Below, one piece after another: positions 39,586 to 56,859 of a stretch of DNA of 64,000 bases. Position numbers and translations under genes: made by a program. The DNA lies in NCBI GenBank assembly GCA_001898625.1, contig MKUP01000032.1:1-64000 (forward strand). Reading direction: 5' to 3'. The stretch is from Burkholderiales bacterium 67-32. Lineage in GTDB: Bacteria; Pseudomonadota; Gammaproteobacteria; Burkholderiales; Burkholderiaceae_B. The notes beneath the pieces are model-generated. The model made no database searches, was not told the DNA's origin, and saw nothing but the letters and a program-made list of their open reading frames with translations. Within the stretch, counting starts at the first letter, position 1, and every line of letters starts with the position of its first letter.

Positions 39586-40176
39586 ATGCCCCTGGACGCC
39601 GAACAACTTGCCGCCTTCCGCCGTCTGGCTGCCGGCCTCGATCGCATCGACGGCGAGGCCTATGCCGCCGCCGGCCGCGATCCGCTCCTGCCTATTCTAG
39701 GTCTGGGGCCTGCCGATGCGCCATTGTGTTTCTTCGGCCGCGATCCGGGCGCGGACGAAGTCCGGCACGGGCAACCCTTCGTGGGCAGCTCCGGCCAGTT
39801 GCTGCGCGCCGAACTGCACCGCCACCTGGCACCGGACGTGCCGTATTCGTTCGACGAAGGCTTGCGCGTTGGCGCGGGTTTCTTCTGGATCAGCACCGTG
39901 CCCTACAAACCCTTGCACAACAAGGCGTGGTCGCCCGCGGTACGGCGGCGTTTCCAGCCGTTGATCCAGCACATGCTGTCGGCGCAGTGGCGCGGCGGCG
40001 ATGTCATCACCCTGGGCAACGAAGCCTTCGAATGGTTCAGCATCGGCCTGGCGGGCGACGAACTGGCCCTGCGCCTGCACCCCTTGCCGCATCCTTCGCC
40101 CGCCAATGCCCGCTGGCGGCCGCATTTCCCCCGGCTGCTCAAAGCCCGGCTGGATGCGCTGCTGCCGTCCGCCTGA
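39586..40176 (+). CDS. Uracil-DNA glycosylase superfamily protein
   Basis: About 196 residues from the ATG at 39586 (ATG at 39556 is possible). Motif 1 region FFGRDPGADEVRHGQPFVGSSG resembles family 4/5 glycosylases (usually GEAPG), and the C-terminal HPSPAN matches motif 2/3. The family removes uracil or other damaged bases from DNA. FeS-cluster cysteines typical of family 4 are not evident, so enzyme activity is not assured. Confidence 0.72.
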   Translation: MPLDAEQLAAFRRLAAGLDRIDGEAYAAAGRDPLLPILGLGPADAPLCFFGRDPGADEVRHGQPFVGSSGQLLRAELHRHLAPDVPYSFDEGLRVGAGFFWISTVPYKPLHNKAWSPAVRRRFQPLIQHMLSAQWRGGDVITLGNEAFEWFSIGLAGDELALRLHPLPHPSPANARWRPHFPRLLKARLDALLPSA

Positions 40177-40189
40177 TGGAGGCCTTGCC

Positions 40190-40468
40190 ATGAACGGACC
40201 CGCCATTTCGATCACCTATTGCACGCAGTGCCTGTGGCTGCTGCGCGCGGCGTGGATGGCGCAGGAACTGCTGTCCACGTTCGGCACGGACCTGGGGCAG
40301 GTCGCGCTGGTGCCGGGCACGGGCGGGGTCTTCCAGATCCGCTACGACGGCGAACTGATCTGGGACCGCAAGGCCGATGGCGGTTTCCCCGATGCGAAGG
40401 TGCTCAAGCAACGGGTGCGTGACCGGTTGGACCCGGGGCGCGACCTCGGGCACGTTGATCGGCCCTAG
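40190..40468 (+). CDS. SelT/SelW/SelH-family thioredoxin-fold protein
   Basis: 92 residues. The CxxC redox motif is in ITYCTQCLWLLRAA, followed by the family GTGGVFQIRYDGELIWDRK and FPDAKVLKQRVRD. Cysteine replaces the selenocysteine found in other members. TGGAGG precedes the ATG, and the gene follows the glycosylase-like gene by 13 bases. It may have a redox role with it. It overlaps the convergent NifQ gene by 4 bases. Confidence 0.82.
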   Translation: MNGPAISITYCTQCLWLLRAAWMAQELLSTFGTDLGQVALVPGTGGVFQIRYDGELIWDRKADGGFPDAKVLKQRVRDRLDPGRDLGHVDRP

Positions 40469-41103
40469 CGCAGACGCTTCGGAAAGCAGCGCGCGTATTC
40501 CTCGCAGCCGGGACAGCCCGGCGCGGGCTGCGGCGTTTCCCCGCGCGTGACCGCCAGATCGTATGCCAGGAATTTCTTCCAGCGCATGTCGCCCGTGTTG
40601 CGCTCGGGCAGCCCCGGGAAGTAGCGATGCAGCGCGCGCGTGACGTCGTCGCGCCCGGCCAGCCCCAGGTCGCGCCACAGATGGTCGGGCCGCAGACAGG
40701 CGTGGGCGATGATCGTCGCCAGGCAGGCGACGTCGGCGGCGGGAAGCGCGGGGTTGCGCCAGGCCTGCATGTGGGCGCGCAGGTTGCCCGTGAACGCGGT
40801 GTCGGCTTCCGGTTGCACCGGCAGCGGGAGAAGGGGGGCACCTGGAAACCAGCGGGCGTACAGCTCCCGTAGCGCTTCCCGCGACAGCCCCAGCAGGGGC
40901 AGTTCCCGCCGGACTTCGCGGGCGGCGAGCAGGCGGGCAAAGAGGCGCGCGTCGAAGGCGTCCGGGTGGGCGGCGAAGGAAGCGAGCTGGGCGGTGCGGG
41001 CGGCGGGATCAGCGTGCTGGGGCAGGGGTGGAGTCCGGTCGAGCAAGGCATTTGCTCCGATGGAAAGGGGCGGAAAGGAAGTCGCGGAGGCGCGCCGTGG
41101 CAT
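40465..41103 (-). CDS. NifQ family protein
   Basis: 212 residues. The C-terminal NifQ signature is RWKKFLAYDL followed by GCPGCEEYARCFPK, with cysteines spaced C-x2-C-x5-C and an earlier one in HACLRPDHLWRDLGL. NifQ delivers molybdenum to nitrogenase cofactor synthesis, but no nif gene is in the window, so another molybdenum or FeS role is likely here. It is the last gene with core-like composition before the toxin-antitoxin operon. Confidence 0.75.
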   Translation of the reverse strand: MPRRASATSFPPLSIGANALLDRTPPLPQHADPAARTAQLASFAAHPDAFDARLFARLLAAREVRRELPLLGLSREALRELYARWFPGAPLLPLPVQPEADTAFTGNLRAHMQAWRNPALPAADVACLATIIAHACLRPDHLWRDLGLAGRDDVTRALHRYFPGLPERNTGDMRWKKFLAYDLAVTRGETPQPAPGCPGCEEYARCFPKRLR

Positions 41104-41143
41104 TAACGGCTAGGCGGTCCGGGGGGCAGTGCTTATGTCGGGG

Positions 41144-41476
41144 TCAGCCGGCTGGGTGGGGTTTGACCTTACCACCCAACGCCAGCGAAGCTCGCAGGGT
41201 ATCGTTGATACGGGTTTGCCAGCCGTCGCCGCTGGCGCGCAAGGCGGCCAGCACGTCGGCATCCAGGCGCAACTTCACTGCTTCTTTCGTCACGGCCTGG
41301 GTGCTGCCCACGGGGCGTCCCCGACGTTTGGCGATCTGCACCGGCGTATGCACCTGGGCGAACTTGCCCGCCTTGGCCTCGGCCAGCGATTCGCGCAGCC
41401 CAGGCAGCGCCTGGCCGGCGTCGGCCTCGATAGCGGCCGCCACTTTGTCCAAGTTCAGCTTTTTCAGGGTCTTCAT
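41144..41476 (-). CDS. BrnA-like antitoxin of a toxin-antitoxin operon
   Basis: 110 residues; the C-terminal half has the BrnA-type RHH sequence VKLRLDADVLAALRASGDGW followed by QTRINDTLRASLALG. N-terminal half is unrecognised and could be the toxin-binding arm. It starts 2 bases after the stop of the RelE-like toxin, so it is the third gene of the operon. Confidence 0.72.
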   Translation of the reverse strand: MKTLKKLNLDKVAAAIEADAGQALPGLRESLAEAKAGKFAQVHTPVQIAKRRGRPVGSTQAVTKEAVKLRLDADVLAALRASGDGWQTRINDTLRASLALGGKVKPHPAG

Positions 41477-41478
41477 GG

Positions 41479-41751
41479 TCAGCTCCGCTTGATGGCCTTG
41501 GCCTTTACGTTGGCGCGCTCGGCCTTGGCGTAAACCATCACCAGCAGCACGATTTCATCATCCACGAGATGGAAGTAGATCACTCTCGCTCCGCCGCGTT
41601 TGCCCATCCCTGGGCGCGACCAGCGAACCTTGCGTGCGCCGTCGGCGCCGGGAAGCACGTCGCCGGCGTCTGGGTTCTCGGCAATCCAGTCAATGAAAGC
41701 GTGGCGCTCGCCTGCGCCCCAGCCGCAATAGTGGACGGCCAGGCGCTTCAT
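41479..41751 (-). CDS. RelE/HigB-like toxin
   Basis: 90 residues. The RelE-fold toxin carries WSRPGMGKRGGARVIYFH and the C-terminal LVMVYAKAERANV (RelE-like beta strands; a HigB-2-type toxin). RelE-like toxins cleave mRNA on ribosomes. It overlaps the upstream XRE gene by 4 bases (ATGA), so it is translationally coupled to it. Confidence 0.75.
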   Translation of the reverse strand: MKRLAVHYCGWGAGERHAFIDWIAENPDAGDVLPGADGARKVRWSRPGMGKRGGARVIYFHLVDDEIVLLVMVYAKAERANVKAKAIKRS

Positions 41752-42059
41752 GTGCTTTTCCGGCGACGGGCCCGCTGCCGCTGGCTGGCTGCTTCGGCTT
41801 TTTCCATCTGGGCGATGGACTGGCGCTTGAGTACGAACAAATCCTCCAGCTCATTGACCAGCCCGAGCGCCTGCTCCGTGCGAACCAGGGTCTCCAGCGA
41901 AGACTGGCCGCTACTTTCCAGCTTGCGCAGTGCGCCCAACGAAAGACCCGCCATCTGCGCCAGCTCGCGCTGGGGCACCCCCTGGGCCAACCGCTGCGCA
42001 CGCACGCGTTGGCCCAGTACTTGAAGTATTTCGCCAGGGGGAGCTAGATTTAATGCCAT
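41748..42059 (-). CDS. XRE-family HTH regulator (antitoxin-like)
   Basis: 103 residues. The HTH is ELAQMAGLSLGALRKLESSG at about residues 32-51; the following SLETLVRTEQALGLV is like HipB/XRE antitoxins. First gene of an XRE-RelE-BrnA operon. An inverted repeat immediately upstream of the start is the probable autoregulatory operator. Whether it is a second antitoxin or only a repressor cannot be decided. Confidence 0.75.
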   Translation of the reverse strand: MALNLAPPGEILQVLGQRVRAQRLAQGVPQRELAQMAGLSLGALRKLESSGQSSLETLVRTEQALGLVNELEDLFVLKRQSIAQMEKAEAASQRQRARRRKST

Positions 42060-42063
42060 TATT

Positions 42064-42079
42064 ATGACTTTTATGTCAT
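42064..42079 (-). promoter_or_regulatory. Operator dyad upstream of the XRE gene
   Basis: ATGAC, six bases, GTCAT forms a perfect 5-bp dyad in AT-rich DNA 5 bases upstream of the XRE start on the minus strand, positioned to overlap the promoter. The likely use is autorepression by the XRE protein. Confidence 0.5.
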
Positions 42080-42466
42080 GAAATCCTATTTAGGAGCCAT
42101 TTAAATGGTCTTTATAGGTCGTGACCAGCACGAGGTACGTTGTATCGCGACTGCCCACAGGGCGGTGGACGGAATCAGCCGCGCCCCATGTGCTCACTCG
42201 ATGTTCTGCACCTGAATATCGATTAATTTTGTGGAAGATCGATATGTGCTTGAGGCTGTTGATTTTGAAAGAGTTTCTCGTACACGTCCTCGGCGAAGTC
42301 ACCAGCCGAATCGCCCCTTAACTTGGGCTTGAATGATACGGCACGGGGAGGGCGGACCCGGTCTTGGACAATCTCAGCGGCGGTGTCTCTCTGGCGTGGC
42401 TGGTCAATGACCGCTGTAGTCGGGCGCGTCGCCTGAACCTTGTGCTTATAGATTTGAGACAGTTGA
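42080..42466. other. Intergenic stretch without recognised gene
   Basis: Between the toxin-antitoxin operon promoter and alpA. It contains no ORF with family features. A minus-strand frame (42223-42573) overlaps alpA and has no recognisable domain. The DNA has mixed composition and is probably the island's left part. Confidence 0.5.
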
Positions 42467-42715
42467 ATGACGACTTGCTTCCAGAAGGCTTCGGCCGCCG
42501 ATCCCCATTTTTCTTCCATCCCAGACTTGCCTCCAACCGGCTTCGTGCGCCAAGCGCATGTGCTCAGCCTCATTCCGATCTCGAGGTCGACGTTGTGGCG
42601 TCAAGTGTCGACAGGCGCATTTCCCGCGCCGGTGAAGCTTTCGCAGAGCATTACAGCGTGGCGGGTTGAGGAGGTGCGGAAGTGGATCGCAGAACGGTGT
42701 GGGGAGGGTCTTTGA
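42467..42715 (+). CDS. AlpA-family excisionase/regulator
   Basis: 82 residues. AlpA HTH: LPPTGFVRQAHVLSLIPISR with STLWRQVSTGAFPAPVKL, followed by TAWRVEEVRKWIAERC. AlpA-type proteins activate excision of P4-like islands and control integrase genes. This is the second mobile-element marker of the island, 13 kb from the integrase. Confidence 0.82.
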   Translation: MTTCFQKASAADPHFSSIPDLPPTGFVRQAHVLSLIPISRSTLWRQVSTGAFPAPVKLSQSITAWRVEEVRKWIAERCGEGL

Positions 42716-42986
42716 TGTAGTTTCGGCTCCCCGCTCCCGCTAGTTCGAGTGCATCACTCTCAGTTGCTGAGACTCGGCAGCGTGGTCAATGTGGGGATTG
42801 TTTGAGCAACCTGGAAAGCCGCTTTGCAGCGAGGCCGTGTGATAACGCGCGAAGCACTGGTCTGGCAGGGGTATCGCTAGCCGCTCAGGCAGTTTTCTCG
42901 GCTTGGTCGCGCCTGCGACCCGTCTCATTGATCTTCGAGGCGACCTCGGGGTGCCATTCACCCCGCAGCGACCGTAGATGGTGCCC

Positions 42987-43274
42987 TCATGCGCCCAGGA
43001 GGCGCATCGCTTTCATGGCCCCCTCGAAGCCCAGGATGCTGAGGACTCGCCTGAAGTTGTACGCCAACACGCTCAGGTTCATCTCGGTCGCCACGTTCTG
43101 GAAGCCTCGGGTCAGGAAGTGCGTCCAACCCATCCAGTGCTTGAGCGTGCCGAAGACGTGCTCAATGGTGCTCTTGCGCACCGTCATGGCGTTGGGCATG
43201 CGGTCCAGCCGTTGCTGGGTCTTGTCCATGACCTCCTCGTGCTCCCATCGCCTGATGCGCCGGTAGAGGACCAT
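42987..43274 (-). pseudogene. IS1182-family transposase, C-terminal remnant
   Basis: The last 95 residues of an IS1182-type transposase: YRRIRRWEHEEVMDKTQQRL, TVRKSTIEHVFGTLKHWMG and NLSVLAYNFRRVLSILG. The N-terminal two-thirds is missing. Upstream, in the same frame, is the stop of the MazG-like gene, so the IS fragment abuts that gene. It is inert by itself. Confidence 0.82.
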
Positions 43275-43286
43275 CGTGCTAGGTCG

Positions 43287-44504
43287 CTACGGATTTGGGG
43301 CCATCTCAACACTGAGGCAGCGTCGATCCAGGTCAGCGGTGACCAAGCCGCCTCGGTGCTCGCGAAGGAAACGAAAGACACGGAAACCCTCAAGTATGGC
43401 CTGCTCCCACATCCAAGGCCTCAAGCTCTCCGCCTCGTAGCCCTTCACCATTTGCCCGATTGTCTTTAGCAGCGCGAAGTCGAGGCTGTCCACGTGTTCG
43501 AAGGCTTCGTAGCGAAGGCCGTGGGAAAACACCCAGTTCGAAAGGCCCTCTTCAGTGATCTTCGCGCGCGCCCCGTCCTGTACCTCGTCAATGTCCGGCC
43601 GGCTGCGCCGACGAACACCCAGCAGGGTCCGCAACACCGGCGACCAGCCAAGGATTCCGGCGAAGGCCAAGTGAAAGACGTCATGGAAGCGGTAGTCGTC
43701 TTCCTCGAAGCTGTTGTCGGTCAACCGATCGCCGATATTGACGTCGTTCATCGACTGATAGGTAAATACTCGCTGCCCCACCTTGAGCTCCTTAAACAGG
43801 ACTCGCATGACGCGTGGAAACTGTTCACTCGGCAGATCCTTGGCGTCCAGCAAGGGGCCCCACTTCCGTTGGATCGGCCATCGATCCATCAGCTTGTCTA
43901 GATTGGCGTGAGCGGCCTCAGCCAAGCTGATATGTGCGTCGGTCGATGCGGACACCAACTGGGAGAGGATGCTGGCCAGGCCGGTCGCCATGGCGTCGGT
44001 TCCGACGATGGACTTGTGGCGCGAGACCAATGTTCCGACTGTCCCCGCGAGGGTGAGGAGACTCTCCTGCACCCGCGGGGGGCTAGCAGGGGCATGAAAC
44101 AGTGATGCCTGAGGCTGGAGGTCTAGCAGCGGACGAACGGCCGCCTCGGGCTCCGGGTATCCGGCCAGAACACCCAGAGACAGGCCGCAGTGGTCCACCA
44201 CGTTCGCTAAGTACCAGAGGACGTCGCCCGTTTCCTCGATCGAGCTAGAGTTGTAGGCGATGTAGGAACTGCGATCCCGCTGCTTTTTCTTCAGCTCGCT
44301 GAGCAGGCTTCCGACCTCACCGAACAGGCCCAGCAGAAGGAACTCGAGCTTCTCGTTGCCCGTCCCGCGGCCGCGGTACGTCTTCACCGCGAAACGCTGG
44401 TACTCGATGAGAGTCAACGGGCGCGCATCCGACGCCTCACCCGTGATTCCATCCAATTCGGACCTCAATCCACTGAGCGTTCGCCTGAGGCTTGGAGTTG
44501 TCAT
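43287..44504 (-). CDS. MazG-like nucleotide pyrophosphohydrolase domain protein
   Basis: 405 residues. The N-terminal MazG-like helical domain has EKLEFLLLGLFGEVGSLLSE (59-70) and SIEETGDVLWYLANVVDH (88-104), with E91-x-x-D94. The canonical second Glu of the first E-x-x-E is a Ser (E63-x-x-S66), with E70 nearby. The C-terminal region from about residue 250 (DDYRFHDVFHLAFAGILGWS) is an uncharacterised extension. MazG family enzymes hydrolyse (d)NTPs to monophosphates. Last gene of a five-gene operon, overlapping the previous gene by 4 bases. Confidence 0.75.
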   Translation of the reverse strand: MTTPSLRRTLSGLRSELDGITGEASDARPLTLIEYQRFAVKTYRGRGTGNEKLEFLLLGLFGEVGSLLSELKKKQRDRSSYIAYNSSSIEETGDVLWYLANVVDHCGLSLGVLAGYPEPEAAVRPLLDLQPQASLFHAPASPPRVQESLLTLAGTVGTLVSRHKSIVGTDAMATGLASILSQLVSASTDAHISLAEAAHANLDKLMDRWPIQRKWGPLLDAKDLPSEQFPRVMRVLFKELKVGQRVFTYQSMNDVNIGDRLTDNSFEEDDYRFHDVFHLAFAGILGWSPVLRTLLGVRRRSRPDIDEVQDGARAKITEEGLSNWVFSHGLRYEAFEHVDSLDFALLKTIGQMVKGYEAESLRPWMWEQAILEGFRVFRFLREHRGGLVTADLDRRCLSVEMAPNP

Positions 44505-45586
44505 TCGTCGAACAGGTCACGGCTTTGTTGATCGGACCGTCTCAAGGCACGGTGTGCGAAGCCTACGCCCGCGTCCTTTGTCAGTCCGGGCAAGAACCCG
44601 CCGCTTCGAAGTTGCCACTTCGGCGGCAGGTAGATCGGCATCGCTTCTGAAGACGGCTTGTATCGGGCCTTGATGCGTGTTCGCGCGCTCGCCAACTCCG
44701 GAAACGCTTCACGACAGTACTTGTCGAGCTCGCAGAACAGTCCTTGGCAGTCGATCGCGTGCAGCGGCCTGCCGAACAGCCCCTCGAAGCGCAGACCCAA
44801 TCGGGTGAACTCATTGCGTTGCCCGTCGACCATCCACCGAATCGCATCCGAGGGGGAGTAGTCCCCCAGGCTGACGAACGCCTTTCGCAGGCCGCGCAGC
44901 GCGCCAGGACCGGCCTGCACGTAATCGTTCTCGTCAAAGCTGACGAGGTCGGAGTAGTTGAGATCGATCGCCGTCTGGTATGCCATGAACGGTCCCATCA
45001 AGGGGAAGCTCTGCAGCAGTGACACCAGAGCCTCAAGGCTGGGTGCATCCAGCGCCCGCTCCGCGCAGGCGTTGTCGACAAACATGTGCCGGAACAGTGC
45101 CACATGATTGCGGTGCTTTTCGTCAAAGCCGAATGCCTTGGTGGCGCACAGGATGAACGCGCCCGTGTAGAGACCGCCCGTCCTGGCCTTCACCTCGTCC
45201 AGCGCTTGCTCGAAGGCACCAGAGTGAAGGTGCTCTAAGCGCGGCGCGCCGCCAAGGATCGCCGACACCTCTCGCCAAGTGCCGATCTTGCTGAAGGTAC
45301 GGAACGCAACCAGCTGGAAGATCCGGTCGAGCGGCGTCGTCATCGCGTCGGTCCCATACGCGACTTCGCCGATCAGGTACTGCGACACCCTGTCCAGCGC
45401 CCGAAACACGTTGCAGAACTTGAATGTTTGCAGGATCGGATCGTCGCTCCACGGCCAGGTCCCGCCGCTCAGACGCGCCTCGAAGGCCGCGTGCCTTCGG
45501 GACGCGAAAGTCCAATACAGGTCAAACACCTCTGGGCGCTTCGTAGGCGCCGTACGACGCACCAGATCGTGCGAGACCCGCCTCAT
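44501..45586 (-). CDS. DNA base hypermodification protein, HMUDK helical-domain type
   Basis: 361 residues. FDLYWTFASRRHAAFEARL and PWSDDPILQTFKFCNVFRAL with DRVSQYLIGEVAYG match the helical domain found in phage 5-hydroxymethyl-dU DNA kinases and stand-alone bacterial relatives annotated as DNA base hypermodification proteins. No P-loop kinase motif is present. Its chemistry is not known for the stand-alone form; nucleotide or base processing is inferred. Overlaps both neighbours by 4 bases, so translationally coupled in the operon. Confidence 0.72.
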   Translation of the reverse strand: MRRVSHDLVRRTAPTKRPEVFDLYWTFASRRHAAFEARLSGGTWPWSDDPILQTFKFCNVFRALDRVSQYLIGEVAYGTDAMTTPLDRIFQLVAFRTFSKIGTWREVSAILGGAPRLEHLHSGAFEQALDEVKARTGGLYTGAFILCATKAFGFDEKHRNHVALFRHMFVDNACAERALDAPSLEALVSLLQSFPLMGPFMAYQTAIDLNYSDLVSFDENDYVQAGPGALRGLRKAFVSLGDYSPSDAIRWMVDGQRNEFTRLGLRFEGLFGRPLHAIDCQGLFCELDKYCREAFPELASARTRIKARYKPSSEAMPIYLPPKWQLRSGGFLPGLTKDAGVGFAHRALRRSDQQSRDLFDE

Positions 45587-46557
45587 GCCTGTCTCAGGAA
45601 CACGCCAGTGCCGTGCAGGTTGAAGTAGCGAGGGTTGTCCGCGAGCTTTCTTGCGGCGATCCGCTCGCCGACGGTGTCGAGGTATCTGCCATGGCCCGCC
45701 CAGTGGTCAAAAATTACGGCTCCACCTACGACAGTTCGCTCAGCCACAACGTTGACGATCGCGGACGCTGACGTGAAGTTGTCCGTGTCTACGAACGACA
45801 GAACGAGGTCCTGGTCGGCAAGCCGACGCACTGTATTGACCACGTCCCCTTCTACGATTTCAACGTTGCGTCCGGAGAACACGGCGCGCACGAGGTCGAC
45901 ATTGAGGAAGACGCAGTCGGGATGGTTGTACATGTCTAGCGGGCTACGCCTAGCAGGAAATCCGCCGAAGGTGTCGAAGCCGTACACCTTCCAGGATGCC
46001 CCCAGTTCTTCGATGAACCGCGACATGAGCATGGTCGTGCCGCCCTTAAACATGCCGAACTCAGCCACGACGCCCGACAGCCCTTGCCGGTGAGCATTGC
46101 GAAGACACTGGTATATGTGCACCAGGCAGTGCGGATAGCCGTTCGCCAGCGACGGAATGAACAGATCCCTGCGGACCCGGTCGAAAATCTCGTCACGAAA
46201 CTCGAAGTGGGCATAGCCGCCAATGAGCAGCCTTGTCGATGCCGGGAGTCGGTCGGCCACAGCCATAAGAAGTGCTTCCTTCCCAGCGTCCTCCGCGATC
46301 ACGACAATGTCAGGGCAGCAACTCGATATCTCGTCTAGAGAGCGGGCGGCCGCGACCGGTTGCAGCGAGAAGATCCCTTCGAGCTTGGCCGCACCCGTGA
46401 CGAAGGCTGGCAGCGCAGCCAGTTCGAAAGCGGCGCTACACCATCCAACGATCGCCACCTTTGCTCCCCCTGACAGGGCAATGATCGCGTCGTTGATTTT
46501 CTCTTTGAGTCGCTCGAGGTCGGCAGGCGGCATCGTCGGTTGGGTGTTCTCGCTCAT
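45583..46557 (-). CDS. TylF/MycF-like SAM-dependent methyltransferase with N-terminal Rossmann-like domain
   Basis: 324 residues. The N-terminal third (KVAIVGWCSAAFELAALPAF) is a Rossmann-like region of unknown ligand. The C-terminal methyltransferase has motif I region GVVAEFGMFKGGTTMLMSRF and KVYGFDTFGGFP, then the metal/substrate segment FVDTDNFTSASAIV. TylF-type enzymes O-methylate small molecules, so the target here may be a nucleotide or modified base. Overlaps both neighbours by 4 bases. Confidence 0.75.
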   Translation of the reverse strand: MSENTQPTMPPADLERLKEKINDAIIALSGGAKVAIVGWCSAAFELAALPAFVTGAAKLEGIFSLQPVAAARSLDEISSCCPDIVVIAEDAGKEALLMAVADRLPASTRLLIGGYAHFEFRDEIFDRVRRDLFIPSLANGYPHCLVHIYQCLRNAHRQGLSGVVAEFGMFKGGTTMLMSRFIEELGASWKVYGFDTFGGFPARRSPLDMYNHPDCVFLNVDLVRAVFSGRNVEIVEGDVVNTVRRLADQDLVLSFVDTDNFTSASAIVNVVAERTVVGGAVIFDHWAGHGRYLDTVGERIAARKLADNPRYFNLHGTGVFLRQA

Positions 46558-47201
46558 ACGAGTCTTTTGAGCGCGGCGGAAAACCGCTTCCCGCCGGACG
46601 CGAAATCGATGGGGTCAGCGATCAGTTCGTTGGGGTGCGCGGCGAGTTGCGGCTCCAGCCACGTGAGCAAGGGCTTGGTCTCCTCATCGATGAACACCCG
46701 GTAGTCCCGCGCGTTCTTGTCATAGCCCATCGCCTTACGCACAGACTGCGGCATCGCGGGGGCCCGGGTGCCGAAGTAGATAAATCGGTCGGAAAGCAAG
46801 ACGCGATTGATACGCGTGTCATGCGTCGTGTTGTCCGGGCACTGCTTGCCCGACACGAGGCTGTGCACCGAGTCTTCCTGCTTCCAGTGAGCACGCGGGC
46901 CATCACGGTGGTAGATGTTGTCTCCCACCAGCTTCTTGTACGAGCCGTTCCGCTTGGGTCGGCGACTGAGGAAAGTTGGGTCGGCCCAGTATTGATCGAA
47001 CGTCATCTCGTGCGTCACGACCATCGCGAAAATGCACCTCAGCGCAGGCGGAAGCTTGGAGCCCGTGAAACCCACGATCCAGTCGCCGGGTTGCGCATGC
47101 TCTCTGATTTTTGGCTTGCAGCAGGCTAGGCTGCAAAGTCCGCCAAAAGGGTTCGGCGCGAAACCGAGGTCGTAGCTGACCGCGTACAGATACGCTTTCA
47201 T
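46554..47201 (-). CDS. Nmad2-type nucleotide-modification-associated protein
   Basis: 215 residues from the ATG at 47201 (MKAYLYAVSYDLGFAPNPFG), with the shared Nmad2 opening, ACCKPKIREHAQPGDWIVG and the later PAMPQSVRK. Nmad domains are linked by comparative genomics to DNA modification clusters; their biochemistry is unknown. It lies 10 bases downstream of a TIR-like gene and overlaps the methyltransferase gene by 4 bases. Confidence 0.78.
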   Translation of the reverse strand: MKAYLYAVSYDLGFAPNPFGGLCSLACCKPKIREHAQPGDWIVGFTGSKLPPALRCIFAMVVTHEMTFDQYWADPTFLSRRPKRNGSYKKLVGDNIYHRDGPRAHWKQEDSVHSLVSGKQCPDNTTHDTRINRVLLSDRFIYFGTRAPAMPQSVRKAMGYDKNARDYRVFIDEETKPLLTWLEPQLAAHPNELIADPIDFASGGKRFSAALKRLV

Positions 47202-47211
47202 CAGATCGACC

Positions 47212-47706
47212 CTAGCAGATGCTGCGCGGCGCAGACCCCATCGGTTCCCGCTCACCACCATCCGGCTTCTCAAACGGTTCCTCGTCGCAGGTACCCTGTA
47301 TAGCGTCGATGATCTTGTCCGAGTTCCAGGCGACCAGTGCGTCGCCGTACTTCTTGAACGGCTCGGGGATGTCGTTCTCAGTCCCGCCGCGCTCGAACAC
47401 ACCGACGATCCGCTTTCCTTTCTCCTTCGCTGTGTTGATCTCCCAATCCACCCACGGGCGCGTATGAGTGTTCTTGCCAATCAACACGACGACCGTCGAC
47501 GCCCAGCTCATCTTCATTCGCAAGAGCCGCTTGATCGCGTGGTCGCTGACTAAGCCCCGGTCCAAGCGCGCCTGGTTCGCCGGCTTGGCCCGGATCGAGC
47601 TGTTCCGAATCTCGTGACCCGCGCGCGCCAGCATGTTCGTCAAGCGCGTGACCTGCGCATCATCCGCGTGATGATGGCTAATGAAGACGTGAGACCGATT
47701 CGCCAT
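47212..47706 (-). CDS. TIR-like protein (ThsB/DUF1863 group)
   Basis: 164 residues. TIR-like fold opening RSHVFISHHHADDAQV, the middle VVVLIGKNTHTRPWVDWEI with Glu89, then KGKRIVGVFERGG. ThsB-type TIR proteins make NAD-derived signal molecules in Thoeris immunity. A strong AGGAGG precedes the ATG. It is the first gene of the five-gene operon, so a TIR sensor may trigger the downstream nucleotide-modifying genes. No ThsA (SIR2-SLOG) is adjacent. Confidence 0.72.
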   Translation of the reverse strand: MANRSHVFISHHHADDAQVTRLTNMLARAGHEIRNSSIRAKPANQARLDRGLVSDHAIKRLLRMKMSWASTVVVLIGKNTHTRPWVDWEINTAKEKGKRIVGVFERGGTENDIPEPFKKYGDALVAWNSDKIIDAIQGTCDEEPFEKPDGGEREPMGSAPRSIC

Positions 47707-48413
47707 ATAGGCCCAACCTCCTAGAAGACGACCACACCGAATGAGAGACAGCTACTCGACGGCTGCCCGGGCTTCCCTGCGAGGCAACATCTTTTCGAGT
47801 TTTCGGAAACAAAGCCAAGCCCGCGCTCTCGATCGTAAAGATAGCACGCGCCGGCACCATGAGTGTTCGGCAAAACTCGTGCAGTTTCCGTTGCCGGGAA
47901 GCTTGAAATGCAGGAGATGACCCGCCTGCACGGCCGATTCCCACGGATTCATCATAAGTTTTGATGATGAGCCGTGACCGAAGTGGCCTGAATCCTGCTG
48001 CTCAGATTCGACGCAATTGCCGCGGGCAAGGGAAATTCACCTTACGCTCCTGCAGTGGCTTCAGATCTACTACCGGCAACTCGCCAATCAGACCACCGCC
48101 GTGGCGGGCTAGCTTAAACCAAACAGCTTCCGCGAAACCGGGGCGATTTAAAATCCATTTTTTCTTGTTCGCAGGAATGGGCGCTTGAAAGAGCTACGAT
48201 CAAGGATGCGCGAATTGCCCTTGCAGCCGAGGAGGCTCCTGCCTCCGATCACAGGCCGAAAAGGCGGTGGCGAGTCGCGCGTGTGCTAGATCCAGCGCCC
48301 ATCGAAAGGTCGAAGAGTCCGAATCGAGCGACGGGGCGCCGTGTACGACCACTGAACGCTTGGTTTGGAATCGAGCAAAAGGCTCGATCCGATCGCAACG
48401 AAGGAGAGTTGAT
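47707..48413. other. 707-bp non-coding gap with possible mobile-element remnant
   Basis: Separates the five-gene operon from the patatin gene. A plus-strand frame ending at 48112 (LTLLQWLQIYYRQLANQTTA) looks like the tail of a lost gene, followed by CTTAAACCAAACAGCTTCC, a style seen near insertion-sequence ends. I cannot name the element. The patatin promoter must lie in the right part. Confidence 0.4.
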
Positions 48414-50903
48414 TTGTCGAACAAACTGGAGCCAGATCAGGGTGCTGCGCACCAACTGCTGACTGAGATGCGTACGCGGATCGCATTGCAGCCCCTTCCC
48501 TATCAGTATGGCGTTGAGGCCCGTGCGCTAGAGAGCCTTTGGGAGTTGTTTGGTCTTGCGCGCGAGGCAATGAAGGCCCACCCGGGCTGCGAGAACTTCG
48601 CTCGCATCGCGACATGCATGCTCAATGTGCATATTCGGCCTGTCACCGCAAAGTGGCACCGCGCGCACAAAGCGGGCGTGCTCGACTCGAGGGACGGGGC
48701 CAATGAGTTCCGAGCAGAGCTCGCGCTCCTACGAAAGAAGCTCACCGAATTCGCTGCGCAGTTCCAAGTGATGGCGTATGGCACCAGTCAGCCTGATGAC
48801 GAAGCGCCGCCGGTTGTCTCTGATGGCGAGATTGACGCGTGCTTCAAATCTATGCAGTACGGCGTGGTGCCTTCAGACGCGCAGGCTCTCGCTGATGCCG
48901 AGGCGATCAACTCGTCCGAAAGGGGCGAAATTGCGGCTCGGCGCCGCATCTATGGAATCCAGAGGGATGAGCGCCAGGACGCGGTCGGACTTGCCCTGTC
49001 AGGGGGAGGCATTCGCTCAGCAACGTTCTGTCTGGGCGTCGTGCAAGTGCTCGCAGAGCGCGGGTTACTCAAGGATGTCGACTACCTGTCTACCGTCTCA
49101 GGAGGTGGCTACGTGGGAAGCTTTATCACCTCCCGGGTGGACGGAGCGGCTGGTGTGGGCTCTCTGGGACAGCCCTTCGGACCAGATACTGATGAAGTGA
49201 GGCACTTGCGACAGAACGCGAAGTATCTCGCGGCCAAGAATTTCGCGGGTCAATGGGGCATGGTGGCTAGCATGGTTGCGGGACTGCTGTTGAACCTGTC
49301 TGGTCCTCTTGCATTGCTGTGCGCGCTCGCCTTGATCACCGCGGCTCGATTCGATGCGAACTGGTTCCTGATCGCCTCCCAGTTGTGCGCAACGGCGAGT
49401 TTCGCTCTTCTTTTCACATATGCAGTGGTGCTGCGGTATGAGGCCGCAGCAAGATGGATCAAGAGAATCTTCGCCTTTTTCCTGGCGTTGTCGGTTGGAT
49501 TTCTCGCAGGATATTGGCTAAGTTTGGCCATCAGCACGCTCGGTTCGATGACTTGGTCGCCCGGCGTCACGGCTGCAGGTGTTGTTGCGATGGTGATTGC
49601 CCCCGGGATAGTCGTAGCGCTCATGAGGCTGCCATCCGTTTCGACCACGCGCAAGGTGATTTCGAACGCGCTGCTGTTTGCGGTCGGTTTGCTATTCCCG
49701 ATTCTTGTTCTGGTCGCTTTTTACGCGCTGCTGCATCTCGCAGTGCTACCACTGGATGTGAGCGCGTCCTTTGGGAACCCGTTGCGGTACATGAGCGGTC
49801 ACACGACCTTAATCATCGCGCTGGTTGTGTTCGCGCTCGTAGCCGTCGTTTTCGTCGACGTCAATCACACTGGGCTTCACCGACTGTACAGGGATCGGTT
49901 GGCAAAGACCTTTATCGATGCTCCTGGGCGAGATCACTTGCCGCTTGAAAGGGTCAATGAGCGCTCAAGAGCGCCCTACCATCTGATCAACGCTACGATC
50001 AATCTATCCTCGAGTGAGAACAGAGCGTTTAGGGACCGCCGCGGCGACTTCTTCCTCATGTCCAAGCACTGGATCGGATCGCGGGCTACGGGATACCGTC
50101 GTACCTCAGAGTGGAAGAATGGACGTACTCCGCTGTATCTTTCGACCGCGATGGCTGTATCCGGCGCGGCAGCATCACCACAAATGGGACTTTTGTCAAA
50201 GCCGGGCTTGGCACCGTTGCTGTCCTTGATGAACGTCCGTCTCAACTATTGGCTCAAGAACCCTGACTACCGATGTACATCCCGGCCTGGCTTCTTGTGC
50301 TTGTTGCGAGAGATGTCTGGGGTGGCCATGTCCGCCACGAGCAACTGGTTCAATCTCTCCGACGGAGGTCACATCGAGAATACGGGCGTGTACGAGTTGC
50401 TGCGACGCCGGTGCAAATTCATCATTTGCGTGGACGGGGAGGCTGACCCCAAATTCATGTTCGCGGGTCAAATGACTCTGGTGCGCCATGCCCAGATTGA
50501 CTTGGGCATCAGGCTTGAGCCAAGGCTCGATGAGATTCGATTTAATCCTGAATCGGGCGTCAGTAGATCGCACATCCATCTGTTGCGAGTGCACTATCCA
50601 GCCCGCCCCGGTGGTCACGCAGCAGAGATTGGCTTGATGCTCTACCTGAAGCTTTCAGTCACCGGTGACGAAGCGGAACTCCTGAAGCGCTATCGAATGC
50701 TCTATCCCGAGTTCCCGCATCAGTCGACAGTCAATCAGTTTTACGATGAAGAGCAGTTCGAGGCATATCGACAACTTGGTGTTCACGTCGCTGAAGGGGC
50801 GTTCTCGCCAGCGCTATTGACATCGGGAACGCACCTCACAAGTGTGAGAGATTGGTTTCGGGACCTGGCCGGCAACCTGCTAGAACCGTCGCACATGAAG
50901 TAG
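48414..50903 (+). CDS. Patatin-like phospholipase with membrane insertion
   Basis: 829 residues from the TTG at 48414, preceded by AAGGAGAG; the frame opens earlier at 48267 but its extra residues look non-coding. Patatin oxyanion loop LALSGGGIRSATF (about 195-207) and nucleophile Ser229 in TVSGGGYVGS. A block of about six membrane helices follows (about 271-486). The catalytic Asp650 is in LSDGGHIENTG. Patatin phospholipases degrade membranes as effectors in CBASS and similar abortive systems. The membrane helices lie inside the catalytic domain. Visible GC is lower than the core's. Confidence 0.85.
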   Translation: MSNKLEPDQGAAHQLLTEMRTRIALQPLPYQYGVEARALESLWELFGLAREAMKAHPGCENFARIATCMLNVHIRPVTAKWHRAHKAGVLDSRDGANEFRAELALLRKKLTEFAAQFQVMAYGTSQPDDEAPPVVSDGEIDACFKSMQYGVVPSDAQALADAEAINSSERGEIAARRRIYGIQRDERQDAVGLALSGGGIRSATFCLGVVQVLAERGLLKDVDYLSTVSGGGYVGSFITSRVDGAAGVGSLGQPFGPDTDEVRHLRQNAKYLAAKNFAGQWGMVASMVAGLLLNLSGPLALLCALALITAARFDANWFLIASQLCATASFALLFTYAVVLRYEAAARWIKRIFAFFLALSVGFLAGYWLSLAISTLGSMTWSPGVTAAGVVAMVIAPGIVVALMRLPSVSTTRKVISNALLFAVGLLFPILVLVAFYALLHLAVLPLDVSASFGNPLRYMSGHTTLIIALVVFALVAVVFVDVNHTGLHRLYRDRLAKTFIDAPGRDHLPLERVNERSRAPYHLINATINLSSSENRAFRDRRGDFFLMSKHWIGSRATGYRRTSEWKNGRTPLYLSTAMAVSGAAASPQMGLLSKPGLAPLLSLMNVRLNYWLKNPDYRCTSRPGFLCLLREMSGVAMSATSNWFNLSDGGHIENTGVYELLRRRCKFIICVDGEADPKFMFAGQMTLVRHAQIDLGIRLEPRLDEIRFNPESGVSRSHIHLLRVHYPARPGGHAAEIGLMLYLKLSVTGDEAELLKRYRMLYPEFPHQSTVNQFYDEEQFEAYRQLGVHVAEGAFSPALLTSGTHLTSVRDWFRDLAGNLLEPSHMK

Positions 50904-50914
50904 TACATCACCCC

Positions 50915-51487
50915 TTACGACGAAGGGCGTAACTTATGCGGACCCGCGCGCCATTGGTCAAACGGCAGGTAGTCTCCGGCATCACGATGAATCCAAAGAG
51001 TCGGTGTTGCACTTAGCATTGTGAAGTCAACATACGGGTAAAGGCCGACAAATTCATGGCCGGCATACCCTTCGGACGGGTTGTCCACAATAGGAAGAAC
51101 AGCCACGTTTCCATTGAATCCATCGAAATACCCAAGTTCCCATGGCATCCAGTTCGAGCGCTTCGCATTGGGCGTGAACAAGTACATCAGAGACGCGGAC
51201 TGGTCCATGCGTTTTCGCAGTTCAGCAGCTGTCTTTGATGTTACGTTCGTACGATCCAGCATTGGATCATCGATCCAATCTACATAGACTCTTTTCTTCG
51301 CATCTTCTAAAAGCAACTTTACGCCGAGCACCAGCTCTTCGTCGACCCGCGCATGTGACAGAAACACGTCGAATGAACCCTCCTTCACAGAAGCGGCTTC
51401 CATTACGAGCGAACGAGCGGTCTTGTTGCGTGCGGAGGTCTGCGCCTTAGCGCGCGTACGAACCTGACTCTCAGTTAACAAAGCCAT
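50915..51487 (-). CDS. TIR-domain protein
   Basis: 190 residues. A basic N-terminal tail precedes the TIR domain: GSFDVFLSHARVDEELV, then SASLMYLFTPNAKRSNWMPWELGYFDG with putative catalytic Glu117. TIR domains hydrolyse or cyclise NAD+ or transmit recognition. It is convergent with the patatin gene (11 bp apart) and divergent from the SLOG-TIR gene across 265 bp. Confidence 0.8.
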   Translation of the reverse strand: MALLTESQVRTRAKAQTSARNKTARSLVMEAASVKEGSFDVFLSHARVDEELVLGVKLLLEDAKKRVYVDWIDDPMLDRTNVTSKTAAELRKRMDQSASLMYLFTPNAKRSNWMPWELGYFDGFNGNVAVLPIVDNPSEGYAGHEFVGLYPYVDFTMLSATPTLWIHRDAGDYLPFDQWRAGPHKLRPSS

Positions 51488-51752
51488 TTACCATCCTCTG
51501 ATGAGAGCTGTTGCGCGAAAGAGCTGCGACGGGGGAATTAAGCATTGGGAGTTACTCCAGGAGCTAGAGCACTATCTCCCTGCGCAAGCCACAGGACATC
51601 TTGCGCGCGCGCAGTGCACATACAGCGAGCCACGTCTCGCCACAGGCCCTACTTCCCCAGGCGGTAGTATAGGCAGTTAAGTTCTTCTATAGCGTCAGCG
51701 TGGACGGACGCTTCGGGCGCTCGCCCCCCATTTTTGGATCAGAGGAGCGGAC

Positions 51753-52817
51753 TTGAAAATTTTCGTCATCGGAGGCCTCCCGTCCGACCGGCTGGAGTCT
51801 TCTTCGGAGGATCAGAAGACACTTGTACGGACGTGTCATGCGCTGGGCAAGGATCTGGCGCGTGCGGGACATGAAATCTTGTTGTGCAGCCCCTTTGAAG
51901 ATTCAGCTGACATCCATGTTCTACGCGGGGCCGCTGAACTCGGATGTGATCTTGACAATAAGGTGCGCTTCTTTTTCATGGATTCGCCGCTTGTCAGAGA
52001 ACGGCTGAATGCGGAAGTGTCCTCGCTTGGGCTCCAAAGCGTGGTTAGAGTGCCCAGTCCACCGCCGCAAACGGAAGATCGACAGGCCCAGCGTTACGCT
52101 TGGCTCCTTTGTCAATTGAATGCAATGGAATCCTGCCAAGTAGTCATTGCGCTGGGAGGCAATCCCAGTGGCGCGGCGAACATGCTTTTGCTGCTCGCCG
52201 ACGGTAAGCAGAAGACAATGCTGCCGCTTCCATTTCTCGGTGGTGCGGCCAAGCTTGCGTTCGATCGCCGTCGATATGAACTCAGAGACCGGCTAGGCGA
52301 AACTATTGAGGAACTTCACGGCGAGGCATGTGTTGCAAAGGCTTCCGATCTGGTAGAGGCCATTACAACACCGAGCGGTGCCGGCGGAGTTTCTGAAACT
52401 GACTCCCCTTTGTTCTTCATAAGCTATGCGCGAGATCGGCAAGGCGAGGCGGACTTTGTAGAAACACTCCTGCGACGCCGAAACCAGCGTGTGTTCCGAG
52501 ATGAGTCGGACTTTGGAGCTGGTCACTCGATCCCTACTCTCATTCGCGAGGCAATCTTCGAAGCAGATGTTTTCGTCGTCCTCTGGTCCTCCGCCTATGC
52601 ATGCAGTCCATGGTGTTTTGACGAGATGGAACTGGCTCTAGACAGGCACGAGGAAGGTAAGCTAAAGCTGTGGATCCTGAGGGTTGACGACACCAGGATC
52701 GTGCCGAAGCGCGCTCGCGACCTACTCTTCTATGATTCTTCCAGCCGCGCGGAGGTGGAAGGCCGGATGCTCCAACTTCTCGCGCAGTACGTTCCTGGAG
52801 GAGGGTTACTCAAGTGA
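51753..52817 (+). CDS. SLOG-TIR fusion protein
   Basis: 354 residues; TTG start with AGAGGAG upstream. N-terminal SLOG-like domain (1-205): MKIFVIGGLPSDRLE, SCQVVIALGGNPSGAANML and the end HGEACVAKASDLVE. C-terminal TIR (about 218-345): PLFFISYARDRQGEADFVE, FRDESDFGAGHS and ACSPWCFDEMELALD with Glu291/293 as catalytic candidates. In ThsA, SLOG senses a TIR-made cyclic ADP-ribose isomer; here the effector is TIR in place of SIR2. Stop overlaps the next start (GTGA). Confidence 0.82.
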   Translation: MKIFVIGGLPSDRLESSSEDQKTLVRTCHALGKDLARAGHEILLCSPFEDSADIHVLRGAAELGCDLDNKVRFFFMDSPLVRERLNAEVSSLGLQSVVRVPSPPPQTEDRQAQRYAWLLCQLNAMESCQVVIALGGNPSGAANMLLLLADGKQKTMLPLPFLGGAAKLAFDRRRYELRDRLGETIEELHGEACVAKASDLVEAITTPSGAGGVSETDSPLFFISYARDRQGEADFVETLLRRRNQRVFRDESDFGAGHSIPTLIREAIFEADVFVVLWSSAYACSPWCFDEMELALDRHEEGKLKLWILRVDDTRIVPKRARDLLFYDSSSRAEVEGRMLQLLAQYVPGGGLLK

Positions 52818-53392
52818 GCTATCAGTTTGGTCTCGGGTCTCTACTCAGAACGCCTCCTAAACGACGGTGCTTCATCTCATACCACCACGCTGACGAACAG
52901 GCTGTTCGCAACTTCATTCAAGTGTTCTCAGTAGCCGGAGAAATCTTCAGCCATCGTGCTTTGGGACTGGAGATGGAACCGGACATCGTAAACAGTCACG
53001 ACACTGATTATGTGATGCGCAGAATACGCGAGCGCTACATGGCCGATACGTCAGTCACGATAGTCATGTTGGGGCAAAGCACTTGGAAACGGCGCTATGT
53101 TGACTGGGAAATTGCAGCCTCATTACGAAATGCACCGAATGCACCCGCCAACGGATTGCTTGGCGTCCACCTTCCAGGCTTCTCCAGAGACCTTCACCAA
53201 TATCCATCCCGGTTCGACGCCAATCTCACACCTCTCGGCTCGGCTCAGGTGGACTGCTATGCGCGATGGATCGACTATCCAGCCAATGACTTCGTTCTTA
53301 CGGAGGCTATCGAGGCCGCCTTCCAGCGGCGACGCACTCACGCACACTGGATCGCCAATTCTGCCCCCCGCTTCGCGTACAACAGGCAGTGA
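52814..53392 (+). CDS. ThsB-like TIR protein (DUF1863 group)
   Basis: 192 residues, GTG start overlapping the SLOG-TIR stop. Opening PPKRRCFISYHHADEQAV, then DTDYVMRRIRERYMADTSVT and WKRRYVDWEIAASLRN with Glu99. Resembles the ThsB family that produces NAD-derived signals upon phage infection. Coupled translation with SLOG-TIR supports one sensor-effector module. A second ThsB-like protein is encoded at 47212-47706, divergent in sequence. Confidence 0.82.
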   Translation: MSYQFGLGSLLRTPPKRRCFISYHHADEQAVRNFIQVFSVAGEIFSHRALGLEMEPDIVNSHDTDYVMRRIRERYMADTSVTIVMLGQSTWKRRYVDWEIAASLRNAPNAPANGLLGVHLPGFSRDLHQYPSRFDANLTPLGSAQVDCYARWIDYPANDFVLTEAIEAAFQRRRTHAHWIANSAPRFAYNRQ

Positions 53393-53408
53393 CTCACCAG
53401 AAAGACCC

Positions 53409-53432
53409 AGATAAACCGATCGTAGTTTATCT
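53409..53432 (+). terminator. Hairpin downstream of the ThsB-like gene
   Basis: AGATAAAC, eight-base loop, GTTTATCT forms a perfect 8-bp inverted repeat 16 bases after the ThsB-like stop. No T-tract follows, so it may be a weak terminator or a regulatory site for the convergent Fic gene. Confidence 0.4.
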
Positions 53433-53568
53433 GCCCGGTCAGGGCGCGGAGCGTATGGTCGCCGCACCACCAACATCCGTGGCACGAATGACAGGTTTCG
53501 AATGCGACAGCCGTTCAGCTTTGAACCTCGACCGACCGCAACCAGTCTGAAGCGGTCCGGAGAGCAGA

Positions 53569-55134: not shown

Positions 55135-55145
55135 GGTCCGATGGT

Positions 55146-55224
55146 TGCACTAGCATTGCGGTTTATTATTTCACTACTATTGAGTTAAGTCAATGCACTA
55201 CTTTTGCGTCTTTCATGTGCACTA
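55146..55224. repeat. Three TGCACTA heptamers upstream of the Fic gene
   Basis: TGCACTA occurs at 55146-55152, 55194-55200 and 55218-55224, in the same orientation. Starts differ by 48 and 24 bases, a common step of 24. They cover the promoter region of the AbiEi-Fic gene and the third touches the 3' end of the integrase gene. Possible operator repeats for the AbiEi-like domain. Confidence 0.5.
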
Positions 55225-56577: not shown

Positions 56578-56680
56578 CACGCAATCTCCTTTCCAAGTGC
56601 TTTGGAACATGGAGTGCGCGCCAGTCAGGCGAACGCGACAAATCGCGTAGAACCAAGCTTGGCGCGGCTCTCCGGGGAGC

Positions 56681-56753
56681 TTGTGGGGGTCGGTGCGGAA
56701 AAACGACAGGGGATCGGGCGCTTAGCCCGAAAAACCCCCACAAACCCCCACAA
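56681..56753. repeat. Inverted and tandem 10-mer repeats near integrase
   Basis: TTGTGGGGGT (56681-56690) is the exact complement of ACCCCCACAA, which is present twice in tandem at 56734-56743 and 56744-56753. A TCGGGC-loop-GCCCGA hairpin lies between at 56714-56730. Repeats of this kind beside an integrase often are arm or excisionase sites. att core not identified. Confidence 0.5.
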
Positions 56754-56859
56754 ACAGCATGCACTGGGGTGAGACGCCGTGCGACGGCCTGAACCTACTT
56801 ACCAACGGGAATCAACGACTTAGGCGGCGGTTTGAGGTGGCATGAGACCACCTGAAAAC

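Follow-up and report, generated by a model that had tools for sequence, protein, structure and literature searches.

In Thoeris defence, the products of TIR proteins activate SLOG or macro-domain effectors, as set out in the available text of two papers (PMC11204291, PMC12847820), and TIR and SLOG proteins have been surveyed in a third (PMC9503650). The locus described here lies in a 64,000-nucleotide stretch of Burkholderiales bacterium 67-32 (assembly GCA_001898625.1, contig MKUP01000032.1, positions 1 to 64,000; hereafter the window), where five minus-strand genes at 43287-47706, in the order TIR, Nmad2, TylF, HMUDK_hel and MazG/MazG_C, form the core operon of what is, judged by sequence comparison, a real, conserved and mobile multi-gene system. 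Like Thoeris (types I, II and IV), the window has a ThsB-type TIR with a catalytic Glu (Pfam ThsB_TIR 4.4e-21; PADLOC PDLC00418 ThsB 1.2e-52). Larger TIR and SLOG genes stand beside the cassette in many relatives, and the Thoeris type III proteins ThcA and ThcB4, both above NCBIfam cut-offs, stand beside it in three plasmids of Cupriavidus, Beijerinckia and Sulfitobacter (loci L033, L035, and L036). A PADLOC scan of 11 window proteins (42,987-55,134) gave no match to the ThsA effector (SIR2-SLOG or TM-macro), and among the window proteins scanned ThcB4 reached at best 24.6 bits against a cut-off of 220 and ThcA had no match. An NCBIfam accession next to ThcB4, considered as another Thoeris type III part, was rejected as an unrelated histidine kinase. 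Thoeris also differs in that Nmad2 and the base enzymes are absent from the available text of its descriptions.

HMUDK_hel was matched in 423 phage records, and both phage loci looked at have it beside thymidylate-synthase (TS) genes. In phage LuckyBarnes, the homologue occurs with a TS fusion, which matches the TS fusion of the window's relatives at 5e-105, and with two annotated HMC glucosyltransferases; in phage Aergia, it occurs with TS and a separate neighbouring P-loop protein gene. Yuavirus-type phages contain hypermodified thymidine. Such hypermodification clusters are alike in having HMUDK_hel by TS genes; the window differs in lacking TS, a polymerase and, among the five proteins, a P-loop protein, and has TIR, Nmad2 and MazG_C instead.

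Among defence systems that act on modified bases, the available sources describe Brig1, a DNA-glycosylase defence (PMC11078745), and BapA, an ASCH-fold glucosyl hydrolase that works with the 5-hydroxymethylcytosine (5hmC) glycosylase Brig3 from one operon (PMC13160076, preprint). As far as these texts go, the likeness lies in a glycosylase-type enzyme, present where the cassette is of the UDG version (10 of 30 loci), an ASCH-like partner and an operon in a defence island; the window is unlike them in carrying HMUDK_hel rather than UDG, plus a TIR, and its Nmad2, weakly ASCH-like, is a putative reader. The available text of the DefensePredictor study lists a 5-hydroxymethyluracil (5hmdU) kinase and thymidylate synthase among newly validated defence domains, its figure key for validated domains shows NMAD and dNMPk, and its predicted systems include aGPT-Pplase, MazG, MazG-C and NMAD, with UDG in the figure key; it differs in that TIR has 0 occurrences in the main text, the gene make-up of its systems being given in figures and tables (PMC13092281). 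As for CBASS, the window patatin has no NCBIfam match to a CBASS-type phospholipase, such lipases occurring in L023 and L033, and no CD-NTase was seen among the 11 window proteins in the PADLOC scan, no dedicated search having been made. No publication was found on TIR with Nmad2, nor on Thoeris type III, in a literature search that left subscription literature largely outside. The initial annotation had known of no characterised system with this gene set, and the search indeed found none that is experimentally characterised; the individual parts are known or predicted, and their combination looks undescribed.

The operon and its TIR-Nmad2 pair

The ThsB-type TIR protein (47212-47706, minus strand; 164 aa, Glu89) is followed, past a 10-base gap, by Nmad2 (46554-47201, minus strand; 215 aa counted from its ATG; Pfam Nmad2 2.2e-66), a TylF-type O-methyltransferase (45583-46557, minus strand; 324 aa; Pfam TylF 2e-11), the HMUDK_hel protein (44501-45586, minus strand; 361 aa; Pfam HMUDK_hel 9.8e-90) and a MazG + MazG_C protein (43287-44504, minus strand; 405 aa; Pfam MazG_C 1.5e-69), all assignments being judged against curated Pfam cut-offs. 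The MazG domain of the last protein (0.0012) scores slightly below its cut-off (19.6 against 22 bits), and an EVGSLLSE...EETGD motif, which we take to be that of MazG, is present. The junctions measure +10, -4, -4, and -4, the last three being ATGA overlaps, and an AGGAGG ribosome site lies upstream of the TIR start. The initial annotation had proposed these five genes with their order, strand, place and junctions, and had singled out Glu89 of the TIR; coordinates and Pfam confirm all of it, the MazG domain lying just below its cut-off, and Glu89 aligns with a Glu in 15 of 15 TIR-type Nmad2 partners compared. PDB relatives of the TIR include ThsB1 (9b7d, 1.1e-06), and those of TylF include the TDP-rhamnose O-methyltransferase CalS11 (0.0018). 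No Walker A kinase motif occurs in any of the five proteins, on which ground a kinase role for HMUDK_hel was rejected, and which leaves the P-loop 5hmdU kinase of phage-type hypermodification absent among them. A C-terminal tail (PDG...R...) terminating in or near Cys is conserved in the TIR-type partners of Nmad2; it could serve in holding the TIR inactive or in binding Nmad2.

Relatives were gathered by a genome scan with the HMUDK_hel protein (15 loci), by tblastn over 72,556 plasmids (20 records for HMUDK_hel, 15 for Nmad2, 17 for TIR, and 34 for MazG_C) and from genome samples in which the window's own genome is counted (Nmad2 in 6 of 398 genomes of the phylum, 12 of 399 of the order, and 1 of 11 of the genus; HMUDK_hel in 4 of 369 of the class). 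Megablast against E. coli matched no relatives, and Nmad2 had no match in phage records. Profiles built in this analysis were run over the stretches fetched around loci, and the comparison set consists of 30 TIR-Nmad2 loci from four phyla, gene presence being judged within those stretches. L012 was dropped as a near-copy of L011, L071 was merged with L018 and L070 with L019, and Nmad2 matches had to reach 1e-15, which excluded one in L018 (4e-04). Since L003-L017 were found through the HMUDK query, their HMUDK counts lack independence; a separate count was made for the 19 loci that Nmad2 or TIR had found, among them L018, L019, and L023 (reached by both routes). Probabilities ignore relatedness, and each junction start was taken as the nearest in-frame start codon and is thus a predicted one.

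Each of the 34 close Nmad2 genes, two of which are repeats, lies within 1.5 kb of a TIR or a diverged TIR, and none of the 14 distant Nmad2 genes does; TIR-paired members had been used to make the profile for Nmad2, so this split between close and distant scores is partly built in and a tree is the fairer test. In a maximum-likelihood tree of 46 Nmad2 sequences, where the long branches of L032, L064, L065, L106, and L108 are unsure, the TIR label needs 3 changes against 12.3 when shuffled, and the tree is compatible with a single origin. A TIR of the same subfamily adjoins Nmad2 in 11 of the 15 Nmad2 plasmid records, a diverged TIR in 3 and none in 1, and the same records have MazG_C within ~4 kb in 11 cases and HMUDK_hel in 5; the expectation for shared records by chance is 0.002-0.007 over the 72,556 plasmids. 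Five of the 12 Nmad2 genomes in the order sample (window included) have the TIR-Nmad2 pair, and the other 7 have Nmad2 without TIR. The spacing is similarly regular, with the nearest Nmad2 start at -4 to +16 from the TIR stop in 26 of 26 distinct same-strand TIR-type pairs. By gene arrangement, the ThsB-type TIR and Nmad2 are a strict gene pair and the predicted core of the system. The annotated coupling of a TIR to nucleotide or base enzymes is right, this linkage being conserved across the 30 loci; the operon was to be given up as a system if its neighbours were not kept or its overlaps were unique to this genome, and both neighbours and short junctions recur over the 30 loci, the exact five-gene order being found in no other locus. 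Locus L004 holds two Nmad2 pairs, one with an active-looking and one with an inactive-looking TIR.

An AlphaFold model of Nmad2 (12 sequences) has a predicted local distance difference test score (pLDDT) of 79.8 and is least certain at residues 15-18 and 85-92, which fall within stretches of strong conservation or next to them. Its best Foldseek match is ZmASCH (E 5.9e-3, probability 0.93, TM 0.34/0.48), and its PDB matches, none with E < 0.001, are ASCH first, then 2eve (presumably an EVE protein), YTH and the McrB reader domain. Against viral models, the best match is unnamed (8.4e-04), and 3 of the ten best are named ASCH or EVE, the rest being unnamed or uncharacterised. Nmad2 likely has an ASCH/EVE/YTH-like fold, as far as the model indicates, and its placement among DNA modification enzymes by the initial annotation is not supported, the model being, weakly, more like an ASCH/EVE reader.

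Enzymes accompanying the pair

Each locus carries one enzyme of either the HMUDK_hel or the UDG type. HMUDK_hel was found in 20 of the 30 TIR-Nmad2 loci, a UDG-like protein in 9, both in 0 and neither in 1 (L039), and the probability of no overlap was 7e-7 over the 30 loci or 1.1e-4 over the 19 loci found by Nmad2 or TIR. L039 is cut at its record end, which prompted a check across the plasmid origin with no expectation stated beforehand, and there a UDG-family gene is present (Pfam 25.7 bits against a cut-off of 24.3); with it the counts become HMUDK_hel 20, UDG-like 10, both 0. The UDG-like proteins are weak yet above the Pfam cut-off in the three scanned, and no UDG was found in the window stretch 40,001-57,000. 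By this comparison of loci, HMUDK_hel occupies the slot that UDG-like proteins fill elsewhere. The most probable of 50 matches to the HMUDK_hel model is the DNA-3-methyladenine glycosidase 2h56 (probability 0.75, E 0.46), a likeness that is a hint from the model. Profile alignment by hhalign of UDG with HMUDK, and of SLOG with the window TIR, gave probabilities of 0.1-3.4%, with only 2-5 sequences a side.

These enzymes also occur in other company. The MazG_C-UDG pairs of L074 and L075 adjoin C1-family peptidase and helix-turn-helix (HTH) genes on conjugative plasmids. In L021, L022, and L024, HMUDK_hel and MazG_C occur with HTH, ImmA/IrrE peptidase, and acyl carrier protein (ACP) or holo-ACP synthase genes and with no TIR or Nmad2 in the stretch, and L021 and L022 each have a gene annotated as thymidylate synthase. 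On a Parabacteroides plasmid (Bacteroidota; L032), the operon reads TIR-Nmad2-HMUDK-radical SAM-521-aa protein, near an integrase; a viperin-like nature of the radical SAM protein was rejected, its PADLOC pVip match (8.7e-14) being bettered by NCBIfam PqqE (2.8e-23), which makes it generic.

The remaining enzymes follow a looser pattern, with MazG_C in 14, TylF in 14 and the TS fusion in 15 of the 30 loci (16 in a first count, corrected because the L072 match at 2e-06 is a metallophosphoesterase by Pfam). TylF adjoins HMUDK_hel in 14 of the 15 loci of the HMUDK_hel genome scan, and an HMUDK_hel start at -4 to TylF is available in 13 of 17 distinct TylF loci. Thirteen of these 17 have a near full-length TS fusion and no MazG_C. 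MazG_C accompanies TylF at three of them only, namely the window, L014 and L015, and all three are without the TS domain; L014 and L015 retain only the C-terminal part of the fusion, which L013 has alone, with no MazG_C in the stretch. This fusion, a pyrimidine hydroxymethylase by likeness and near full length in 13 of the 16 other TylF loci, is missing from the window. The TS-like gene of L004 matches CMP 5-hydroxymethylase at 7.1e-23 against 1.4e-08 for the best thymidylate synthase. CMP 5-hydroxymethylase has a role in making the nucleoside antibiotic mildiomycin.

Integrative island and accessory genes

The operon is carried by an island of ~14.6 kb (42196-56880) integrated at the 3' end of the gene at 56860-57780, which we take to be yicC. 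The flanking DNA is shared by four genomes of the same genus (85-97% identity over aligned pieces) that lack these genes, and at the empty sites the sequence matching window 41.07-42.21 kb is followed within ~40 bases by that matching 56.85-56.86 kb. Comparison with these sites places the island ends at an imperfect 19-base repeat, on the left at 42196-42214 and on the right at 56862-56880, at the 3' end of yicC (14 of 19 bases identical), and a single copy of the repeat is found at each of three of the empty sites. A tyrosine integrase (55222-56610, minus strand; Pfam Arm-DNA-bind_3 1.7e-14, Phage_integrase 4.1e-14) lies at the right end and an AlpA-type regulator (42467-42715, plus strand; Pfam Phage_AlpA 5e-10) near the left. 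The G+C content per kilobase is 0.54-0.64 in the island and mostly 0.63-0.73 outside, one outside kilobase having 0.59. Empty sites, end repeats, integrase and AlpA genes, the G+C contrast and the presence of Nmad2 in 1 of 11 genomes of the genus (own genome counted) therefore indicate that the cluster arrived on this integrative island and is a horizontally moving element. The island also has a Fic/DOC-family gene (53569-55134; 521 aa; PADLOC SoFic 3.6e-22) next to the integrase, and the C-terminal fragment of an IS1182-type transposase at 42987-43274, immediately downstream of the operon stop. An IS1182 transposase lies downstream of the Sinorhizobium locus L018 as well.

Between the operon and the Fic gene, at 48.3-53.4 kb, the window has a patatin gene and three TIR genes as counterparts of the accessory genes of relatives. 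The candidate effector is a patatin-like phospholipase with a long N-terminal region and an uncertain GTG start (48267-50903, plus strand; Pfam Patatin 7.4e-06), whose domain scores 26.7 bits, just below the 27.7-bit cut-off; the same family occurs in L005, L009, L018/L071, L019/L070, L034, and L097 and, as weaker or partial matches, in L098 and L099. A second TIR, labelled TIR7 (50915-51487, minus strand; Pfam TIR_2 8.4e-08; PADLOC PDLC00422 ThsB 1e-62), has relatives in L009, L018, and L035. The next TIR protein, with the working label SLOGTIR for its putative SLOG nature (51753-52817, plus strand; Pfam TIR_2 3.3e-19), has a relative in Sinorhizobium L018, and it is followed with a 4-base overlap by a second ThsB-type TIR, labelled TIR9 (52814-53392, plus strand; Pfam ThsB_TIR 2.8e-18), with relatives in L004, L018, L034, L099, and L100. 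On a Klebsiella plasmid (L069), a protein 32% identical to the TIR of 51753-52817 lies upstream of a large protein and two response regulators.

Extra TIRs accompany 20 of the 30 loci, and some stand in line with the pair. In G461 (L100), TIR6-TIR-Nmad2-MazG_C-TIR9-HMUDK share a strand, and the genes may overlap by 4 bases at TIR/Nmad2, Nmad2/MazG_C, and MazG_C/TIR9; in G1026 (L099), TIR-Nmad2-MazG_C-UDG-TIR9-TIR6-SLOG are co-directional, with a partial patatin match farther on. The Sinorhizobium plasmid locus L018 has 8 of the window's 9 families in a different order (patatin, TIR9, TIR7, 51753-type TIR, TIR, Nmad2, TylF, HMUDK), plus a TS fusion and without MazG_C. Treating the five genes as the whole system is therefore too narrow, given that G461 and G1026 join further TIR or SLOG genes to them co-directionally and that patatin recurs. 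Many loci are without patatin and the accessory TIRs in the fetched stretch, so these genes may form a module of their own, linked to the core without being an obligatory part of it.

Proposed mode of action and rival explanations

The system is probably anti-phage. The gene linkage and the HMUDK/UDG exclusivity are observations, and from them we infer every biochemical step of a model, held tentatively, in which a mobile, TIR-based abortive-infection system directed against phages would have the operon as its sensing and enzymatic arm. HMUDK_hel or UDG, TylF and MazG/MazG_C would work on pyrimidine bases or nucleotides of the hypermodified or hydroxymethylated kinds that typify modified-DNA phages. 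Nmad2, with its ASCH/EVE-like domain, would bind the resulting base, nucleotide or DNA lesion and switch on the TIR, which would turn NAD+ into an ADP-ribose-type signal or deplete NAD+. Accessory TIR/SLOG proteins may relay the signal, and the patatin phospholipase would break the membrane, killing the infected cell ahead of phage release. The model leans on the TIR-Nmad2 pairing, the HMUDK/UDG exclusivity, the co-directional runs of G461 and G1026, the ThcA and ThcB4 neighbours in three plasmids, the company of HMUDK_hel in the two phage loci and the CMP 5-hydroxymethylase likeness in L004. Its published parallels are Brig3 with BapA, the TIR products that activate SLOG or macro-domain effectors, and the 5hmdU kinase and thymidylate synthase domains of DefensePredictor.

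Several results weigh against this model. No promoter-like site was found in a promoter scan. The fold match of Nmad2 is weak (E 5.9e-3; TM mostly < 0.5), and nothing in the PDB matches the HMUDK_hel model significantly. The diverged TIR of L003, L004 (second pair), and L007 lacks the catalytic Glu and is, by sequence, probably inactive, and the diverged TIR type is the only one in 5 of the 30 loci (L003, L007, L037, L072, and L073). In addition, no Nmad2 lies in the fetched stretch of 11 of 31 HMUDK loci, and L074 and L075 have MazG_C-UDG pairs but no TIR-Nmad2, which implies that the enzymes also work without this TIR. SLOG-type families occur in 18 of 30 loci only, with L018 and the window counted among these solely through the 51753-type protein, whose SLOG nature is putative, and patatin occurs in only 12 of 30. 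A SLOG domain was not shown for the N-terminus of that protein by hhalign, a comparison that had no power here, since ThcA and the protein of SLOG cluster 2, each of them SLOG according to Pfam, likewise reached only 3.4 against each other; one of the alignments contained the L018 sequence twice. Finally, the relatives' hydroxymethylase gene gave no match in the window's own genome (6.66 Mb, 34 contigs) in a search without positive control, so the substrate would have to come from phage or elsewhere.

The same genes could instead be an antiviral nucleotide factory or pool poison, in which a modified pyrimidine nucleotide (O-methylated or hydroxymethylated) would block phage DNA synthesis, or MazG would drain nucleotides, with the TIR as a parallel arm. 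The hydroxymethylase-like gene of L004, closest to CMP 5-hydroxymethylase, the presence of CalS11 among the PDB neighbours of TylF and the radical SAM gene of the Parabacteroides version, generic as it is, would suit this explanation, which is nevertheless rather unlikely, because UDG-like proteins replace HMUDK_hel, which fits base removal rather than synthesis, because neither the window nor its genome yielded a hydroxymethylase, and because TIR and Nmad2 are paired more strictly than TylF, MazG_C or hydroxymethylase is retained. That substitution also bears on self-marking, the initial annotation's suggestion of a DNA hypermodification set, by which the genes would hypermodify host DNA and TIR-Nmad2 would kill on meeting unmarked DNA. 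The phage homologues of HMUDK_hel, with thymidylate-synthase genes in the two loci looked at and glucosyltransferase genes in one, speak for it, but a UDG-like protein would be expected to attack such bases, not make them; the window is without the hydroxymethylase fusion, for which the host genome gave no match either, the five proteins have no Walker A motif, and the set is mobile and rare in the genus, all of which make self-marking very improbable.

Improbable, too, is the view that independent defence systems share the island and that the linkage is mere co-location. The mobile island does hold several TIRs and a patatin next to a Fic gene, the arrangement of modules differs from locus to locus, and the base enzymes are also found without TIR-Nmad2. 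Against this stand the strict TIR-Nmad2 pairing and the HMUDK/UDG exclusivity, on which plain co-location in a defence island was rejected, together with the short junctions across lineages and the co-directional runs of G461 and G1026. A further, highly doubtful variant is that a non-standard pyrimidine base, made or released by the enzymes, serves as co-substrate of the TIR in NAD+ base exchange, HMUDK_hel and UDG being interchangeable base donors, and that the resulting modified-base ADP-ribose messenger is read by accessory TIR/SLOG proteins; if true, the system would have a custom-made second messenger, one that goes unrecognised by the signal sponges of phages.

If the abortive-infection model is true, it would unite enzymes acting on modified phage bases with TIR alarm signalling, two defence ideas so far studied apart, and would explain why a UDG-like protein and HMUDK_hel were in no case seen together beside TIR-Nmad2. 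It would also give testable roles to the orphan families Nmad2, HMUDK_hel and MazG_C, and the predicted targets of the system would be modified-DNA phages, which escape restriction.

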